Assembly: GCA_018883185.1 (NCBI GenBank)
Contig: VEQP01000003.1
Span: forward strand, 1 to 64,000
Direction of reading: 5' to 3'
DNA length: 64,000 bases
DNA from: Nevskiaceae bacterium
Lineage (GTDB): Bacteria > Pseudomonadota > Gammaproteobacteria > Steroidobacterales > Steroidobacteraceae
A program made the position numbers and the translations under genes. Under the pieces are notes generated by a model. That model had not been told where the DNA came from and did not search any database. It worked only from the letters and a program-made list of their open reading frames with translations. Shown piece by piece: positions 3,209 to 15,310 of this stretch (the stretch's first letter is position 1; each line of letters starts with the position of its first letter).

Positions 3209-5872
3209 CTATTGCAGGTCAGTCGTTGGCAACAGTCGATAGACGTTGTCGAGCAATGTTTGGTCCTCGTAATCGGCTTTGGTCAGATAGATGTTGGCTC
3301 CGGCGTCGAGGCCCCGTTGCCGCTCCTCGGCCGATGCGCGATACGACATGACGATGATTGGCACTTTACGGAGGCGGCCGTCCTGTCTGATGGAGCGAAT
3401 CAGACCGATACCATCCAACCTCGGCATGTCAACGTCGGTCACCACGAGATCGAAATCCGTGTCCCGCATTACGCCCCAAGCTTCCATCCCGTCTGCGGCA
3501 AGCGTGACCTTGAATCCGGCCTCCTCAAGCAACTCTCGTTCCATGGCTCGCACGGTTGGTGAGTCGTCGACCACCAGGATGTGCACGGCCTTCTTGCCTG
3601 CGTTCCGCCCAGCGAGGCCGAATTCCCGGACCTGCAAGACATCCCGATTCAGTGCTGACCGAATCATGTCATCGGTGTCAATGATTAGGACAGGCTGCCC
3701 ATCGGGAAGGACGGCCGCGGCACTCAGATTGGGCACCCGGCCGAGACGAGCGTCGATGGCCTGCAGCACCATGTCTTGCTCGCCCCGAACGGCGTCAACG
3801 ATGAACCCGATGTGATGGCCGAAGCTGCTGACTACAACTATGTCTAGAGCAACCGGCGAGGCCGTTGATGGTTCGAACTCCAGGACCTCCGAAGCCGCAA
3901 TCAGCGTGATGGTTCGTCCTTCCCGGACCACGTAGCGGCGATTCTCCGCGATCAAAACTTCCGTGCTCGCAAGCCGCAGTACTTGATCGACGCGTGTCAG
4001 GGCAAAGGCATACGCCTCGCCTCCGATCATGACCACCACTGCCCGAAGCACTGAGCGGCTAATGGGTACCTTTAATTGAAACCGCGCTCCGCGACCGGCT
4101 TCCGTCTGTACGTTCACCGAACCGCCGATGTCGCGCATTACACTGCGAACCACAGCGAGACCGACGCCGCGCCCCGACAGTTCGGTGACCTGTTCCGCTG
4201 TAGAGAAGCCGGATACGAAAAGCTGATCGAGTAGACGCTCGGTGGACAACTGCTGGGCGGATTCCACGCTGGCCAGCCCCATGGCAACGACGCGCTTTCG
4301 GACTTTGGCCAGATCGATGCCGGTACCGTCGTCGATGACAGTGATCTCCATCGAACCGGACGCAACGCGTATCTCGATGCGTATCAATCCGATTTCCGGT
4401 TTTCCGCTGTCCCTTCGGACCACGGGTTTCTCCAGTCCGTGGTCGAGAGCATTGCGTAAAAGATGATTTAGCGGTGCTTCGATGCGCTCGAGGATATCCC
4501 GATCGATGCGATGGTTTTCGCCGCTTATGGTCAAGGATACTTGCTTGCCGAGACGTTTCGCGACATCACGAACCAGGCGTGGGAACGCCGTCAAACCGTC
4601 GGCGACAGGCCGCATGCGGCTGTCGATAGCCTCGCCATAGAGGCGCAGTACCAAGTCTTCCTTGCGGCGAAGGTACAACTCGTGATCTTCCGACCACATC
4701 GAGTTGGCAACGCGAACGTCGTTCAATTGGATCTTTAAATCCTCAACCCGGGTGCGAATTCGACCGTCGACCGCGGCTGTGGCGATGGTCTGTTGCAGTG
4801 TGTCCAGCGAGTCGGCGATGTTGAGCAACTTTATGCGGAGTCTTTGATGCTCCTTCGCCAAGTAACGATGTTGGCTCGTCTCGACGACCAGTTCGCCCGA
4901 CATCGCAACGAGTCGCGACAACTGTCCGGCCCGGATGCGCACGGTTCGCTCGTCATCGCCTGCGGTCCGGGTGGGTGCGGCAGTCTTCGCCGTAGTGGAT
5001 ACCGCCGCCGCTTCATCGCTGGTCTGCGGCGGTAAAGCCTTTCGTTCGACCGGGACAACGAGGTTACCGGAGGACTGCACGGCAGCCTGCAACCCTGCTT
5101 GATTGATGCGCTCTGCACAGTCCAAAACGGCTTCATCGTTAGGCGGCGGCGTGCTGGCGGCGGCGGCGGCCCCGATCCTCTGGAAAAAGTCGCCGGCGGC
5201 CAGCAAGGCGTCCACCAGATCTGGGCTGATCAACACCTGCCCACGCCGGGCACGTTCCAGTTGGTCCTCAGCGGCGTGAGCCAGCACCACCGCGGCATCG
5301 AGCCCGACTGCACGTGCCGCGCCTTTTATGGAGTGGGACGCGCGCATGAGCCGGTCGATCAACTCGGGTTGGTCAGGCTGCTTCTCCAGAGACAGCAGGC
5401 CCTCGTTCAAAGTGTTGGCGTGCAGTTCGCACTCTTGTCTGAACAGCTCCAGTGTGCCGGCAGGCACTGACGTGAGCGGTTTGTTTCTTCGCGTAGGGGC
5501 CGTCGCAGCCGCGCGCACGGAAAGTCGTCCGAGCAGTTCGACAATTTGGGCTTCGGGCGCGACCTCACTCGCTGTCGCCGAACCTGACTGCGCCACGGCT
5601 TCGATCAATTCCAAAGAATCGGTACAGGCTTGCAATTGTGCCGGGCTCAACATCGTTCCTGCAGATTCGGCCGTACTGATCATCGTTTCGAAAGCATCGG
5701 CAATGCGCTCGGCCTCACGGATACCGACTACCCGGGCTGCACCCTTCAATGCTTGGGCTGCGAACAGCATTTCGCCATCGGGGGGGAAATGCGCACAGCG
5801 TTCGAAGCTCTCGCGCAGTGTGAAAGCCTGCCGATCGACCTCGTCACGGAACAGGGCGTCGAGGGCGTTCAC
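3209..5872 (-). CDS. Hybrid chemotaxis histidine kinase CheA-REC (WspE-like)
   Basis: 887 aa; Hpt motif SHSIKGAARAVGL, HATPase LRNALDHGLEKPVVRRDSGKP...GRGVGLAVVRS, CheW-like domain, C-terminal receiver HILVVDDSPTVRAMERELLEEAGF...VVTDVDMPRLDG. Confidence 0.93.
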   Translation of the reverse strand: MNALDALFRDEVDRQAFTLRESFERCAHFPPDGEMLFAAQALKGAARVVGIREAERIADAFETMISTAESAGTMLSPAQLQACTDSLELIEAVAQSGSATASEVAPEAQIVELLGRLSVRAAATAPTRRNKPLTSVPAGTLELFRQECELHANTLNEGLLSLEKQPDQPELIDRLMRASHSIKGAARAVGLDAAVVLAHAAEDQLERARRGQVLISPDLVDALLAAGDFFQRIGAAAAASTPPPNDEAVLDCAERINQAGLQAAVQSSGNLVVPVERKALPPQTSDEAAAVSTTAKTAAPTRTAGDDERTVRIRAGQLSRLVAMSGELVVETSQHRYLAKEHQRLRIKLLNIADSLDTLQQTIATAAVDGRIRTRVEDLKIQLNDVRVANSMWSEDHELYLRRKEDLVLRLYGEAIDSRMRPVADGLTAFPRLVRDVAKRLGKQVSLTISGENHRIDRDILERIEAPLNHLLRNALDHGLEKPVVRRDSGKPEIGLIRIEIRVASGSMEITVIDDGTGIDLAKVRKRVVAMGLASVESAQQLSTERLLDQLFVSGFSTAEQVTELSGRGVGLAVVRSVMRDIGGSVNVQTEAGRGARFQLKVPISRSVLRAVVVMIGGEAYAFALTRVDQVLRLASTEVLIAENRRYVVREGRTITLIAASEVLEFEPSTASPVALDIVVVSSFGHHIGFIVDAVRGEQDMVLQAIDARLGRVPNLSAAAVLPDGQPVLIIDTDDMIRSALNRDVLQVREFGLAGRNAGKKAVHILVVDDSPTVRAMERELLEEAGFKVTLAADGMEAWGVMRDTDFDLVVTDVDMPRLDGIGLIRSIRQDGRLRKVPIIVMSYRASAEERQRGLDAGANIYLTKADYEDQTLLDNVYRLLPTTDLQ

Positions 5873-6516
5873 TGCAGGATCCTTTGTCGCAGCAGATCAA
5901 AAAGAGCGTCGCTGGAGAGTAGCGTGACGCGACTGTCATCCCAGGCCACGGTTCCGCGAGTGACACCCGTGAGCACGGGCGAGGCAGTAGCGGGTATCGG
6001 CAGCCGCTCCGCCGGGTCGAAGGACACCACGCCTCTCACTTCGTCCGCGACAAACGCCCAGCGCTCTCCAGCTTGGCGTATGACGACGATGCGCTGGCCC
6101 ATTGCGGAGGACTTCTTGTTCGTCCCTGCGGAGGCTTCGAGCAGGGCACCCAGATGCACCGCCAGCAGCAATTGCCCGCGTACATTGACAAGGCCGGCGA
6201 CAAGACCGGCGCGGTGCGGCACACGATGAATCGGTTTGCTGGCGGCAATCTCTTCAACACAATGACTGTCGAGAGCCATCCACTCCTGCGCGAGTTTGAA
6301 GAACAGTGCCGTCTCCAACTTAGGAGGTCTCGGGACAGGCAGTGCCACTGACGCCAGTGCGGCATCGGCGTATCCGGCAGGCAAATCGCGCTGTCGAATG
6401 CCGCTTGCCGCTGCCGACAGCACCGGACAATTGCGACAGTGAATATGCTGCACAAGTTCAGGGCAGCTAAGATCGCCGCCCGTGCCTATGGTTCGCCAGC
6501 AGTCGCGCATGATCAT
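5869..6516 (-). CDS. CheW-like coupling protein, WspD-like with N-terminal Cys-rich motif
   Basis: MIMRDCWRTIGTGGDLSCPELVQHIHCRNCPVLSAAA followed by CheW domain; start overlaps upstream stop (ATGA at 6513-6516). Confidence 0.88.
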   Translation of the reverse strand: MIMRDCWRTIGTGGDLSCPELVQHIHCRNCPVLSAAASGIRQRDLPAGYADAALASVALPVPRPPKLETALFFKLAQEWMALDSHCVEEIAASKPIHRVPHRAGLVAGLVNVRGQLLLAVHLGALLEASAGTNKKSSAMGQRIVVIRQAGERWAFVADEVRGVVSFDPAERLPIPATASPVLTGVTRGTVAWDDSRVTLLSSDALFDLLRQRILQ

Positions 6517-7031
6517 CCGGTTAGCGGGGTCGGGGTTTCGTGACCTAGGTCGGGCATCGTAGGCGTGGTGGCGCCGCACAGCACATCCAAGACCTGCTCG
6601 CTCAGCAACTGATCAGGCTTCAACAAAGGGATCATGCGCTCGCGGTCGACGAGAACATCACCGAGGAACGGGGAGTCCGGCAGGTTCAAGCCCGGTTGCA
6701 AAGAGGCATCATTCGCGGATGACAGTTCGCAACCTTCCACCAAAAGTCCGACAACCCGTTCCGCATTACGGCCTACAGCCACGACCACGATGCGACTCGC
6801 GAGCCATTTCGGGCAGTCACGCGCCGCGAGTAGCCTGCATAAGTCGACGATCGGCACCACCCGTCCACGATGGTTTATCACGCCTACGACGCTTTCCGGT
6901 GCGAGGGCGACGGTTTGACACGGCAGCCAAGGCAATACTTCGATTACCTGCTGTGCTGACAACGCGTACCGTTGGCCGGCAACTGCCAGAACGATGAGCA
7001 GCGAATCTCGCGATGCCCGTCGACTGAGCAT
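6513..7031 (-). CDS. CheW-like coupling protein (WspB-like)
   Basis: VAGQRYALSAQQVIEVLPWLP...VVGVINHRGRVVPIVDLCRLL is a CheW domain. Confidence 0.88.
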   Translation of the reverse strand: MLSRRASRDSLLIVLAVAGQRYALSAQQVIEVLPWLPCQTVALAPESVVGVINHRGRVVPIVDLCRLLAARDCPKWLASRIVVVAVGRNAERVVGLLVEGCELSSANDASLQPGLNLPDSPFLGDVLVDRERMIPLLKPDQLLSEQVLDVLCGATTPTMPDLGHETPTPLTG

Positions 7032-7032
7032 G

Positions 7033-8685
7033 TCAGTTTCCGAGCTTGAAGCGCGCGATGTCTTGAGTCAAAGAGTCGACGGCCTGTCGCAGTCGGGTGA
7101 TCGCAGCGTTGAATTCCGGTAGCGCATCTGCGCTCAGCTGTGCCGTGTCCATCAGTTGCGTCATCGCTTCGCTGATCTGCCTGGCGCCCTGCGATTGACT
7201 CCGCATGCCTCGATTGACATCGTCAAAACGCTCCGACAGCGACTGAACCTGCCCCATGATCTGGCCGAGTTGCGTGCTGACTTCCGTGGTGACGCCCGCA
7301 CCGCGCCTGACTTGTGCCGAAAAGCCGTCCATCTCCATCACGCCGGCCGATACTGCCGACTGCATGTGGCGCACCATCTGTTCGATGTCGAGCGTGGCAA
7401 CAGCAGTCTGGTCGGCCAGCCGACGAATTTCACGTGCGAGGACCAGGAAACCCAGACCTTGGTCGCCGGCTTTTTCCGCTTCGATGGCGGCGTTGATGGA
7501 AAGCAAATTAGTCTGATCGGCGATCTTGGTAATCGTCGTCACGACACTGCTGATGTCGGAGGCCTTCTCGCGAATGGTGCCGAGACGGGTCGAAATGGAG
7601 GAGGTCGCTTGCTGAAGCTCTTGCATCGCCCCATTCAGTTCGTCAAGCGAAGTTCGTCCGCCCGAGGCTACTTGGGCGGTCTGGCCGGCAACCGTGTTGA
7701 CCGCCTCCATCGTGGTCATCAGGACTGCGCTGGTGTCCGAGATACCGCGTGCCGTACCGGCGATCTGCACCGCCGAGTCACGCAGGCCACCGACGCTGGT
7801 TTCCTGTCGTTTACCGGACAGAGAAAACTCGCCAGCAGACTCTCCGAGATTCAGTGAGGTTTGTCTGACACGCGCTACGAGATTGTGAAGATTGGCAGTC
7901 ATCGCCTGTATAGCCGCGAGCAGACGGCCGGATTCGTCCGTCGTACCCGTATCCGGCACCCGAACGGTGAGGTCGCCCTCCGCTACCCGCGCTGCCACGC
8001 TGGCGGCGAGAGACAGTCTGCCGTTCAGGGACTGCGCCATGCCGCGGGTGATCCACGCCAGCCCAATAACCACGGCGACCACCAGCGCACCCAGTAACAA
8101 CAAATTTCTTTGACTACTGCTCAGCGTCGACTCCGCTAATCGTTCGAATTCGAGGTTGCGCGCCGTGGTCAACTTCACGACCTCGTCTACTGCTTTCCGG
8201 TGCTCCTCGTAGCGTTGCTTCAACGTGGTCAATGCTGCGGCGATACGCTGCGGATCGCGAGCGAGGACCGCGGGTACGAGCTCGTTATCGCGAATTTGGT
8301 AGTACTCGAATGCGGGCCGGTAGGCCGCTATGTTCATCGTGTCGCCCAAAGGGCCCGGTGCGAGCGCCCGCGTCCAATACTCGTGGCGTTTCTCGAACTC
8401 GACGCGCAGTCCGTTACCCCTGTCTATCAGCTCGGCCTGACGCGCCGGCTCCTGCTCGTCGATCAGTTGCAGCGTCAACAGGTGGGATTCGATGATGTAC
8501 GCGGGCGGTGGCAGGATGTCGGCAATCAGATCTTTGCCTTCGATGATGGACGAATACAAAGGACCGTTGACCCTAACAGTCTCTATGGTTCGCCAAGACA
8601 CCAGCGCGAAGGCGAAGAAGACGAACGTGAAGGATCCGAGCAGCAGCAGCAACGTCTTGTTGAGGCTGAGATTGCGAAACGCCAT
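7033..8685 (-). CDS. Methyl-accepting chemotaxis protein (WspA-like)
   Basis: TM, periplasmic domain with ADILPPPAYIIESHLL, TM, HAMP, signalling hairpin KIADQTNLLSINAAIEAEKAGDQGLGFLVLAREIRRLADQTAVATLDIEQMV. Confidence 0.93.
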   Translation of the reverse strand: MAFRNLSLNKTLLLLLGSFTFVFFAFALVSWRTIETVRVNGPLYSSIIEGKDLIADILPPPAYIIESHLLTLQLIDEQEPARQAELIDRGNGLRVEFEKRHEYWTRALAPGPLGDTMNIAAYRPAFEYYQIRDNELVPAVLARDPQRIAAALTTLKQRYEEHRKAVDEVVKLTTARNLEFERLAESTLSSSQRNLLLLGALVVAVVIGLAWITRGMAQSLNGRLSLAASVAARVAEGDLTVRVPDTGTTDESGRLLAAIQAMTANLHNLVARVRQTSLNLGESAGEFSLSGKRQETSVGGLRDSAVQIAGTARGISDTSAVLMTTMEAVNTVAGQTAQVASGGRTSLDELNGAMQELQQATSSISTRLGTIREKASDISSVVTTITKIADQTNLLSINAAIEAEKAGDQGLGFLVLAREIRRLADQTAVATLDIEQMVRHMQSAVSAGVMEMDGFSAQVRRGAGVTTEVSTQLGQIMGQVQSLSERFDDVNRGMRSQSQGARQISEAMTQLMDTAQLSADALPEFNAAITRLRQAVDSLTQDIARFKLGN

Positions 8686-8784
8686 TCGATATACCTCAGG
8701 TAGGCAACACTTCTACTTGCCGCACCGAGGGTACAACGGTGGTGAAATTCCGTGCAAAAAAATTTTTGTTGAGGTTCGTCAGCG

Positions 8785-10338
8785 TTAGCCGCCCGGAGAC
8801 CGCGGTGCGTGACGACGATCCGTCAGTTCGGAAATACCGGCAAATTGCAGTAGCACGCCATCGGCATCGCTTTGCATTACACGCGCCCAGATCTCGGTGC
8901 CGGCGGGCCCGGGCTCGTCGGGTTCGATAACGAGACGTACTTCAGTGAATTGCGGCAAGGCAATTTCAGTGCGAATTCGCGCCCCGTATTCGTTGGCACT
9001 GATCATGAAGCCGGTGGTAGGGGGGCCGGAAGCGTGCTTGTTCTTGGCCAGCCAGAGTTGCAACGGACGCGGTGGATCGAACCGTTGCTGGATTCCGCTG
9101 CGCGTGGGCAGCAGCAGGCGCTGCGACCCGTCTAGACCGAGCAGCTCCCACGCGCACATCTCCTTCTGGAAGCCTTTGGCTTGAAAGCGCAGTTCGCGAC
9201 CCGTGATCGCCGACAAGCCGATGGCTTGGCGTGTCGCATCCGAGATCAATACCTGCCCGCCGACGCTTAGCGACTCGATTCTCGCGGCGAGATTGACGTT
9301 GCTGCCGATGACGCTGTACTCGGTGCGCAGATCAGAGCCGATGTTCCCTACGACAACCTCGCCCGTATGCAGTGCAACCCCCATATCGAGCATCGGCAGT
9401 CCGCTTGAACGATGGGTGTCGTTGACGGTCTGCAGTGCATGATGCATTTCGATCGCGCAGCGTGCCGCGCGCAGCGCATCGTCCTCGCGCGATACCGGCG
9501 CGCCGAATATCGCCATCACCGCGTCACCCATGAACTTGTCGATAGTGCCCTGGTGAGCGGTGATTACGCGAGACATTGCTGCCAAGAAACCGTTGAGCAT
9601 AAGCACGACGTCGGTCGCCGGCAGCTTGTCGCTGATGGCGGTGAAACCTCGAAGATCCGCCAGCATGATCGTGACGACACGATTTTCGCCGCCGAGTTTC
9701 AGCCCTTCGGGCGATTCGAGCAATTGGTTCACGACTTCGTCGGAGAGGTAGCGTCCGAATGTCTTGGTAATGAATCTGTTACGCGTCTCGAGGACGACCG
9801 CTTGTCTAGCGATCTGCTCGTGGCTGCGACGCAGCTCCTCACGACTTTCGGTAAGCGCCTGCATCGCCATTTGCCGCATGTTCTCGTTGCGAAACGCTTC
9901 GGAGTGATAGCGCAGACGTGCGATGAGTTCGACGGCGCTCGGGAGTTTGATCAGGTAGTCGTTGGCACCGACTCTGAACGCTTTTGCCTTGATGGCGGGA
10001 TCTTCCTTCGTAGACAGGACCACTACTGGCACGTCCCGAGTCGAGGGGCTTTGTTTGAGTTGCTGGAGCACCTCCAGCCCATCGACGCCCGGCATCATCA
10101 AATCTTGCAGGATCACGGTCGGCTTCACGGACTTCGCGGTATCGAATGCGGCGACAGGATCCTGGCAGTGATGCACCGCGATGTAGTTCTCTGTGCCCAG
10201 CAGCTCGCGAATGCGTTCGGCGATGATCAATTGGTCATCGATGAGTAAAACCACGATCGACGGTCGCCGTGAATGAGCCATTACTAACGAGGTTAGGGGT
10301 TTTCGAGTCGAGGTGCTCGGTCGGCTACGGCGATTCAC
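8785..10338 (-). CDS. Response regulator: WspR-like receiver + class III nucleotide cyclase + PilZ-like C-terminus
   Basis: REC: VVLLIDDQLIIAERI...KPTVILQDLMMPGVDGLEV...VVVLSTKEDP...GANDYLIKLP; cyclase: VTIMLADLRGFTAISDKL...GTIDKFMGDAVMAIFGAP...YSVIGSNVNLAARIES; tail: GFMISANEYGARIRTEIALPQFTEVRLVIEP. Alternative start at 10281. Confidence 0.9.
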   Translation of the reverse strand: MNRRSRPSTSTRKPLTSLVMAHSRRPSIVVLLIDDQLIIAERIRELLGTENYIAVHHCQDPVAAFDTAKSVKPTVILQDLMMPGVDGLEVLQQLKQSPSTRDVPVVVLSTKEDPAIKAKAFRVGANDYLIKLPSAVELIARLRYHSEAFRNENMRQMAMQALTESREELRRSHEQIARQAVVLETRNRFITKTFGRYLSDEVVNQLLESPEGLKLGGENRVVTIMLADLRGFTAISDKLPATDVVLMLNGFLAAMSRVITAHQGTIDKFMGDAVMAIFGAPVSREDDALRAARCAIEMHHALQTVNDTHRSSGLPMLDMGVALHTGEVVVGNIGSDLRTEYSVIGSNVNLAARIESLSVGGQVLISDATRQAIGLSAITGRELRFQAKGFQKEMCAWELLGLDGSQRLLLPTRSGIQQRFDPPRPLQLWLAKNKHASGPPTTGFMISANEYGARIRTEIALPQFTEVRLVIEPDEPGPAGTEIWARVMQSDADGVLLQFAGISELTDRRHAPRSPGG

Positions 10339-14623: not shown

Positions 14624-15310
14624 ATGGCTCGAACTGCGTGGCTGGGGTGGTTGATGGTGGGTTGTATGGCAGGCCTTGCTCAGGCGGCAGAGGGGCCGGT
14701 GACCCGTCAAAAAGACTTTTCAGCGACCGGCATCACCGCCGTCTCGCTCGATGCCGGGGTTGGGAGTGTTCGCATCGAACAGGGCGACGCCGATCGCATC
14801 AAAGTAACCGCCCGGCTTGAAGCCAAGCGCATGAGCAACCCGCTCAGTGCCCTGCCCGATGTCAGCAAGCTCGATATCCGTCATTCCGTGGTCAATGGCA
14901 CGCTCGAACTGCGCGTCGATGCCAAAAATCTCAACGAGGACTGGGTGGTGACGCTCGCCCGTGTTCCGCTTAACCGCATCGACGTCGAACTTGGCGTCGG
15001 CGATGTCGAAGTGCAAAGCAGCGCCCGGCGAATCTCGGTGGAGGCGGGCGTGGGTGATGTGCGCGTTGATGCAGCGCTTGCCGAGATCAACATCGATGTC
15101 GACGTGGGTGATGCCCGGGTCGTGACATCTCAAAAAAGTGCGGGCTCCATTGACGCTAAGACTCGCGTGGGTGCAGTGACGCTCAAGGGTTCGAAGACGA
15201 GTTCCATGAGCGGCTCGGTCGGGGCCAGCGTCAGCAGTCAGGCCGAAGGCTCCAATCCCGTCATCATCAAGGTGGGCGTGGGTGACGTTCGAATAGATCT
15301 CACGCCGTGA
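14624..15310 (+). CDS. Exported GVGD-repeat protein, paralogue of 10415..11101
   Basis: Signal peptide; repeats GVGSVRIEQGDADRI, GVGDVEVQSSARRI, GVGDVRVDAALAEI, GVGDVRIDL. Confidence 0.75.
   Translation: MARTAWLGWLMVGCMAGLAQAAEGPVTRQKDFSATGITAVSLDAGVGSVRIEQGDADRIKVTARLEAKRMSNPLSALPDVSKLDIRHSVVNGTLELRVDAKNLNEDWVVTLARVPLNRIDVELGVGDVEVQSSARRISVEAGVGDVRVDAALAEINIDVDVGDARVVTSQKSAGSIDAKTRVGAVTLKGSKTSSMSGSVGASVSSQAEGSNPVIIKVGVGDVRIDLTP

Follow-up and report, generated by a model that had tools for sequence, protein, structure and literature searches.

What becomes of a Wsp-type chemosensory array when the receiver that should carry its output is joined to a nucleotide cyclase? Five minus-strand genes near the start of contig VEQP01000003.1 (Nevskiaceae bacterium, assembly GCA_018883185.1) raise this question. 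They lie in the stretch of 64,000 nucleotides analysed here, which we call the window, and encode a protein with a receiver domain and a class III cyclase (REC-cyclase), a methyl-accepting chemotaxis protein (MCP), two CheW proteins and a CheA with a receiver of its own (CheA-REC). In textbooks, Wsp is the pathway by which surface contact leads to cyclic diguanylate (c-di-GMP), and a preliminary description of the locus had proposed a Wsp-like pathway whose output appeared switched from c-di-GMP to a class III cyclase. We conclude that these genes probably form a chemosensory pathway that derives from Wsp in reduced form and has a cyclic nucleotide as its output. Gene content and domains, kinship to WspE and WspR, a conserved operon, intact catalytic residues, and the absence of CheR, CheB and the receptor methylation motif carry this conclusion.

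Kinship of the kinase and receiver to Wsp

The window CheA lies within the WspE clade (support 100/100) in a 54-row tree with nine non-Wsp CheAs as outgroup; row L084 is the window's own CheA and not a tenth outgroup member. The 38 CheAs of ordinary Wsp clusters form one group (95/90), and outside it, still within the WspE clade, fall the window group, two systems with a REC-SpoIIE output and genome G426. In a 73-row tree of receiver domains, which replaced a smaller first tree with long outgroup branches, the window receiver and its two orthologues sit within a WspR-type clade (100/99), apart from the other receivers included. Canonical REC-GGDEF receivers of WspR form a separate group of 47 (97/86), and the window lineage is outside it. 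The closest solved structures to this receiver are the WspR receivers 3bre and 3i5a (Pseudomonas aeruginosa and Pseudomonas syringae), and in alignments with genuine Wsp proteins its WspR-like motifs correspond column for column. The MCP tip signature aligns with WspA proteins, and the cysteine motif of the second CheW with WspD of Wsp clusters. The three likenesses pointed out in the preliminary description are thus real, and the trees bear out the Wsp descent of CheA and receiver that it supposed.

By alignment, the first (N-terminal) Hpt domain of CheA lacks the histidine (AAQALKGAAR) and the second retains it (ASHSIKGAAR), so the second is the likely phosphodonor.

WspR-type receivers without GGDEF were also seen in four genomes that belong to a single family in another class of the phylum. 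Those at L259:522-1730 (+) and L266:748-1950 (-) are fused to HisKA-HATPase by Pfam; those at L267:754-1959 (-) and L268:754-1974 (-) are placed with them by the tree only (99/95).

A class III cyclase with a PilZ-like tail

Pfam recovers Response_reg at residues 30-142 (E 1e-22) and Guanylate_cyc at 221-374 (E 1e-24) of the REC-cyclase, confirming that a class III cyclase stands where GGDEF would be expected. Its closest solved relative is Cya2, at 45-48% identity over the catalytic domain, and alignment with the Cya2 structure 2w01 reveals a complete class III residue set. Numbered from the GTG start, as is the receiver's phospho-acceptor D79, this set comprises the metal-binding pair D228/D272, the purine-specifying pair K268/S342 and the transition-state pair N349/R353. 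The metal and transition-state residues are invariant in an eight-row alignment, and the catalytic columns are conserved across homologues. An AlphaFold model (mean predicted local distance difference test score, 77) connects the receiver and the cyclase by a single helix, residues 135-194.

K268 aligns with E488 of Cya2, where the single change E488K turns a guanylyl cyclase into an adenylyl cyclase (PMC5995499); guanylyl cyclases carry Glu and adenylyl cyclases Lys at this position, the Cya2 pair being E-G (PMC4215837). We compared window:8785-10338 with the orthologous cyclases of two Burkholderiales metagenome-assembled genomes (MAGs), L001:1052-2527 and L002:10022-11497, which have the E/G pair of Cya2 rather than the K/S of the window. 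We therefore predict from these two residue positions that the window cyclase is specific for ATP and makes cyclic AMP (cAMP), that its Burkholderiales relatives are specific for GTP and make cyclic GMP (cGMP), and that the product consequently differs within one operon family. The earlier wording, 'cAMP or cGMP', would thus be narrowed for each lineage.

The C-terminal tail, previously called PilZ-like, has no Pfam match in the window protein itself, although Pfam assigns PilZ to the homologous segment in cyclases from Thiocapsa and Planctomycetota. A separate model of the tail finds PilZ domains as its top structural matches, with a probability of ~1.0 but E ~0.01, and true PilZ rows in the underlying alignment may help this match. 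As modelled, the tail is a degenerate PilZ beta-barrel. The c-di-GMP motifs RxxxR and D/NxSxxG are absent from the tails of the window protein and both Burkholderiales orthologues, and present in the Thiocapsa homologues. We set aside a role for the tail as a c-di-GMP sensor, since a PilZ fold without the binding motifs is not enough to link the protein with c-di-GMP.

A receptor without a methylation arm

The MCP has transmembrane segments at residues ~11-29 and ~195-213 enclosing a periplasmic region of ~165 residues, followed by HAMP and signalling domains. A Pfam search with the periplasmic region gave no match, and the surface or envelope sensing once suggested for this array found no evidence; surface sensing is a conjecture here. 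A loose form of the methylation motif, sought in the first methylation helix, occurs in none of the three MCPs (window, L001 and L002), against one to four copies in each of 33/33 canonical WspA proteins scanned.

CheB (PF01339) and CheR (PF01739) are absent from the operon, and searches for both in the host genome (G000) were negative while positive controls matched. All three CheW-domain matches in G000 lie within this cluster. Because the genome is 89.6% complete (71 contigs, 4% contamination), the absence of CheR and CheB is strong but not final. The gene loss and the loss of methylation sites agree in the window system. Site loss alone is no proof of enzyme loss, as the two MCPs of another operon (L152) also lack the motif though that operon retains CheR and CheB. 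Neither Burkholderiales operon has cheR or cheB, and unrelated transporter genes stand at the end of each. A WspR-type REC-GGDEF protein paired with the cluster from outside the window, which would have spoken against the proposal of the preliminary description, was not found in the host genome, nor in genomes G760 and G761.

With three defining parts (WspC, WspF and a REC-GGDEF WspR) searched for and not found, the system is not strictly Wsp but a reduced Wsp-type variant. The label 'Wsp-like pathway' holds for the core parts and fails for the methylation arm, whose absence the preliminary description overlooked.

Conservation of the operon

The order REC-cyclase, MCP, CheW, CheW, CheA recurs in the two Burkholderiales MAGs, with identities to the window proteins of 63-64, 73, 51, 53 and 61%, respectively; the architecture thus does occur elsewhere beside WspA and WspE homologues, where the preliminary description had suggested looking. 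Two SulP-STAS-cNMP_binding genes adjoin the operon in both MAGs. We considered them as proof of a cyclic-nucleotide effector and reduced them to weak support, because they are in convergent orientation and the MAGs are near relatives. The window's host has several proteins with a cNMP-binding domain, one of them a CRP-family regulator.

Proposed mechanism and alternative explanations

Phosphotransfer, activation mechanism, product and stimulus are the parts of the pathway that we infer. The membrane MCP with its WspA-type tip, the two CheWs and the WspE-type CheA-REC would assemble into a signalling array, in which the intact second Hpt domain of CheA would hand its phosphoryl group to the WspR-type receiver at D79. 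Phosphorylation may then act through the ~60-residue helix and an FGRY element, by dimerisation or rearrangement, to activate a homodimeric class III cyclase whose product would be cAMP here (K268/S342) and, in the orthologues from Burkholderiales, probably cGMP. Signalling would be non-adapting, as is expected from a receptor without a methylation system, or reset solely by dephosphorylation and the C-terminal receiver of CheA. Downstream, cAMP could act via one of the host's cNMP-binding proteins, for example the CRP-family regulator.

Several observations weigh against this pathway or thin its support. The two Burkholderiales operons are 95% identical in DNA over 7 kb and amount to little more than one observation, so that synteny stands on two lineages; in a sample of 396 genomes from its order, the window gene is the sole match at E <= 1e-60. 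The receiver sits beside a REC-SpoIIE receiver in the 73-row tree, with weak support (84/62). Missing sequence might hide a CheR, a CheB or a WspR, since the assembly is fragmented; the cluster lies 3.2 kb from the end of its contig, and further CheR genes occur in trans in the Burkholderiales genomes. The state of the assembly bears on one alternative, in which the cyclase is an extra branch of an ordinary Wsp system whose WspC, WspF and WspR lie in unassembled parts of the genome; with ~90% completeness, 71 contigs and a contig end close downstream of cheA, such a loss from view is conceivable. In most canonical clusters scanned, however, wspC and wspF lie between wspB and wspR, and what follows cheA here is a MAPEG and a bPH_4 gene; the MCP has moreover lost its methylation motif, and the Burkholderiales operons, which run on into transporter genes, show the same lack of cheR and cheB. 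We regard this alternative as very improbable.

The cyclase might instead be a neighbour and not the cognate output, serving another kinase while the array drives a different regulator or CheA's own receiver. A 99-bp gap does separate it from the MCP gene when the other four genes are tightly joined, and the genome has other hybrid kinases, for instance beside another REC-cyclase at C41:113200. Yet the order and direction of the cyclase–MCP pair are kept in the Burkholderiales MAGs, canonical Wsp operons likewise have their receiver output adjoining the array, and the receiver belongs to the WspR type, which canonical Wsp arrays phosphorylate, and is the only one of that type found in G000; we think an unconnected cyclase unlikely. 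That the cyclase domain is inactive, has another product, or acts as a regulatory or binding module is suggested by decay elsewhere in the same protein, where the ligand motifs of the PilZ-like domain are gone. Against this, the metal Asp pair, the purine Lys/Ser and the transition-state Asn/Arg are all present, with the catalytic columns kept in homologues, and we give the idea little credence. A Wsp-derived array acting through the cyclase thus continues to be our preferred explanation.

Output diversity among Wsp clusters

A sample of 350 genomes from the class, queried with CheA, gave strong matches in 62, the window's own genome among them, and 59 Wsp clusters were retrieved. REC-GGDEF stands at the end of 54 of them and two are interrupted by contig ends. 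Two others, operons with CheR and CheB, join a WspR-type receiver to a PP2C phosphatase of the SpoIIE type: L139:12276-13448 (+) and L152:12407-13583 (+, to the contig end). The remaining cluster, L131:7796-13961 (-), retains wspB to wspF and lacks wspA and wspR; elsewhere in this genome (G426), an orphan REC-cyclase with a WspR-type receiver adjoins thiC (L163:8653-10119, +). A Wsp operon without wspR together with an orphan REC-cyclase of this type makes G426 an independent link between Wsp and cyclases.

The window-type and G426-type REC-cyclases are placed apart in trees, and approximately unbiased tests did not reject a single clade for both (p 0.395 for the receiver, p 0.235 for the cyclase); a common origin of the two is, on these sequences, neither shown nor rejected. 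The direction of the output change, GGDEF first or cyclase first, is likewise left open, because the window lineage and the other Wsp systems with alternative outputs fall outside the GGDEF clade. The alternative output stands, but the phrase 'switched from c-di-GMP' assumed a GGDEF ancestor that neither tree supports (95/90 for CheA, 97/86 for the receiver).

One broader scenario, which we offer tentatively and hold to be possible rather than probable, is that the Wsp core serves as a general module for sensing. Its early relatives would have driven several outputs, among them SpoIIE phosphatases and class III cyclases with cAMP or cGMP as product, and the c-di-GMP form would be a single derived branch. 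The window cluster would then be an adaptation-free cAMP member of an older diversity, its product flipping between cAMP and cGMP through active-site substitutions within one operon family. The CheA sampling behind this scenario covers one class, and support near the base of the tree is modest.

A second, non-Wsp link between array and cyclase was seen in Treponema MAGs, where che clusters (L047:5029-19464 and L037:1-7387) carry a cyclase with a degenerate receiver directly after the CheA-REC gene; in L047, four MCP genes follow this REC-cyclase.

Gene layout and genomic setting

Open reading frames and Pfam domains confirm the order, strand and packing of the five genes as first described (Table 1). 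Chance or mis-annotation is ruled out, with all domains far above Pfam cut-offs. A 1-nt gap separates the MCP and first CheW genes, the two CheW genes overlap by ATGA, and the second CheW gene and cheA overlap by 4 nt. Alignment with orthologues indicates that the REC-cyclase probably starts at an ATG near 10281, giving 498 residues, and that the second CheW likely starts at the ATG at 6516.

Table 1. Components of the cluster, in window coordinates.
Feature	Position	Strand	Size	Basis or remark
REC–class III cyclase–degenerate PilZ protein (PilZ by model)	8785..10338	-	517 aa from GTG	Pfam, alignments, model
Same-direction spacer, REC-cyclase to MCP gene	8686..8784	-	99 bp	Similarly short in Burkholderiales relatives
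WspA-type MCP	7033..8685	-	550 aa	Pfam HAMP and MCPsignal; alignment with WspA proteins
CheW 1, WspB position	6513..7031	-		Pfam CheW
CheW 2, WspD-type motif CWRTIG-GDLSCPEL-HCRNCPV at N-terminus	5869..6579	-		Pfam CheW; Wsp-cluster alignment
WspE-type CheA-REC	3209..5872	-	887 aa	Pfam 2 Hpt, HATPase_c, CheW, Response_reg; CheA tree

GC content at third codon positions is 0.66-0.72 in the operon and 0.69-0.87 in other window genes, which is no more than suggestive of a recent horizontal gain; a plasmid search returned partial matches only. Two secreted proteins of similar look are encoded at window:10415-11101 (+) and 14624-15310 (+), the former scoring slightly below the DUF4097 cut-off. A second host REC-cyclase, with a receiver not of the WspR type, lies on the window's contig near hybrid sensor kinases (L170:13153-14256, +).

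Comparison with known systems

If correct, a Wsp-type array acting on a cAMP or cGMP cyclase without a methylation arm would mean that array output is exchangeable, and would provide a simple system of few parts for array signalling without adaptation. The REC-SpoIIE and orphan REC-cyclase cases suggest output diversity beyond this one locus. A published survey of Wsp distribution, based on a synteny search requiring wspA-wspF, reported only WspR and WspH outputs (PMC8552884), and our literature searches found no Wsp-cyclase system described.

The canonical Wsp R-system (wspABCDEF-wspR; reference, the Cupriavidus metallidurans CH34 megaplasmid, L122) shares with the window cluster the WspA-type tip, two CheWs of which the second has the cysteine motif, a CheA-REC without P2 in the same 100/100 clade, and a WspR-type receiver as separate output. 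The window cluster differs in lacking the CheR-TPR protein WspC, the CheB WspF and the receptor methylation motif, in having a class III cyclase with a PilZ-like tail and not GGDEF, and in placing the output gene upstream of the MCP, not after wspF. The Burkholderia H-system, which we liken by description and not by sequence, also joins a Wsp-type core to a non-GGDEF output (WspH) at the 5' end of the cluster, but retains wspA-wspF (PMC8552884). The REC-SpoIIE operons and the G426 pair have a WspR-type receiver with a non-GGDEF effector and CheAs likewise outside the canonical GGDEF clade; they differ in retaining CheR and CheB, and in G426 the cyclase gene and the wsp operon stand apart.

The catalytic domain is held in common with Cya2, a guanylyl cyclase of Synechocystis that is membrane-bound and carries CHASE2 (PMC5995499). 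Neither Cya2 nor the CyaC-type REC-linked bacterial cyclases are known to be tied to an MCP array. CyaC works through a phosphorelay. Pil-Chp of P. aeruginosa, in which PilG activates CyaB (PMC12632253), is likewise a chemosensory array that raises cAMP, as predicted here, although its response regulator and cyclase are separate proteins, it controls type IV pili and its CheA is of another kind.

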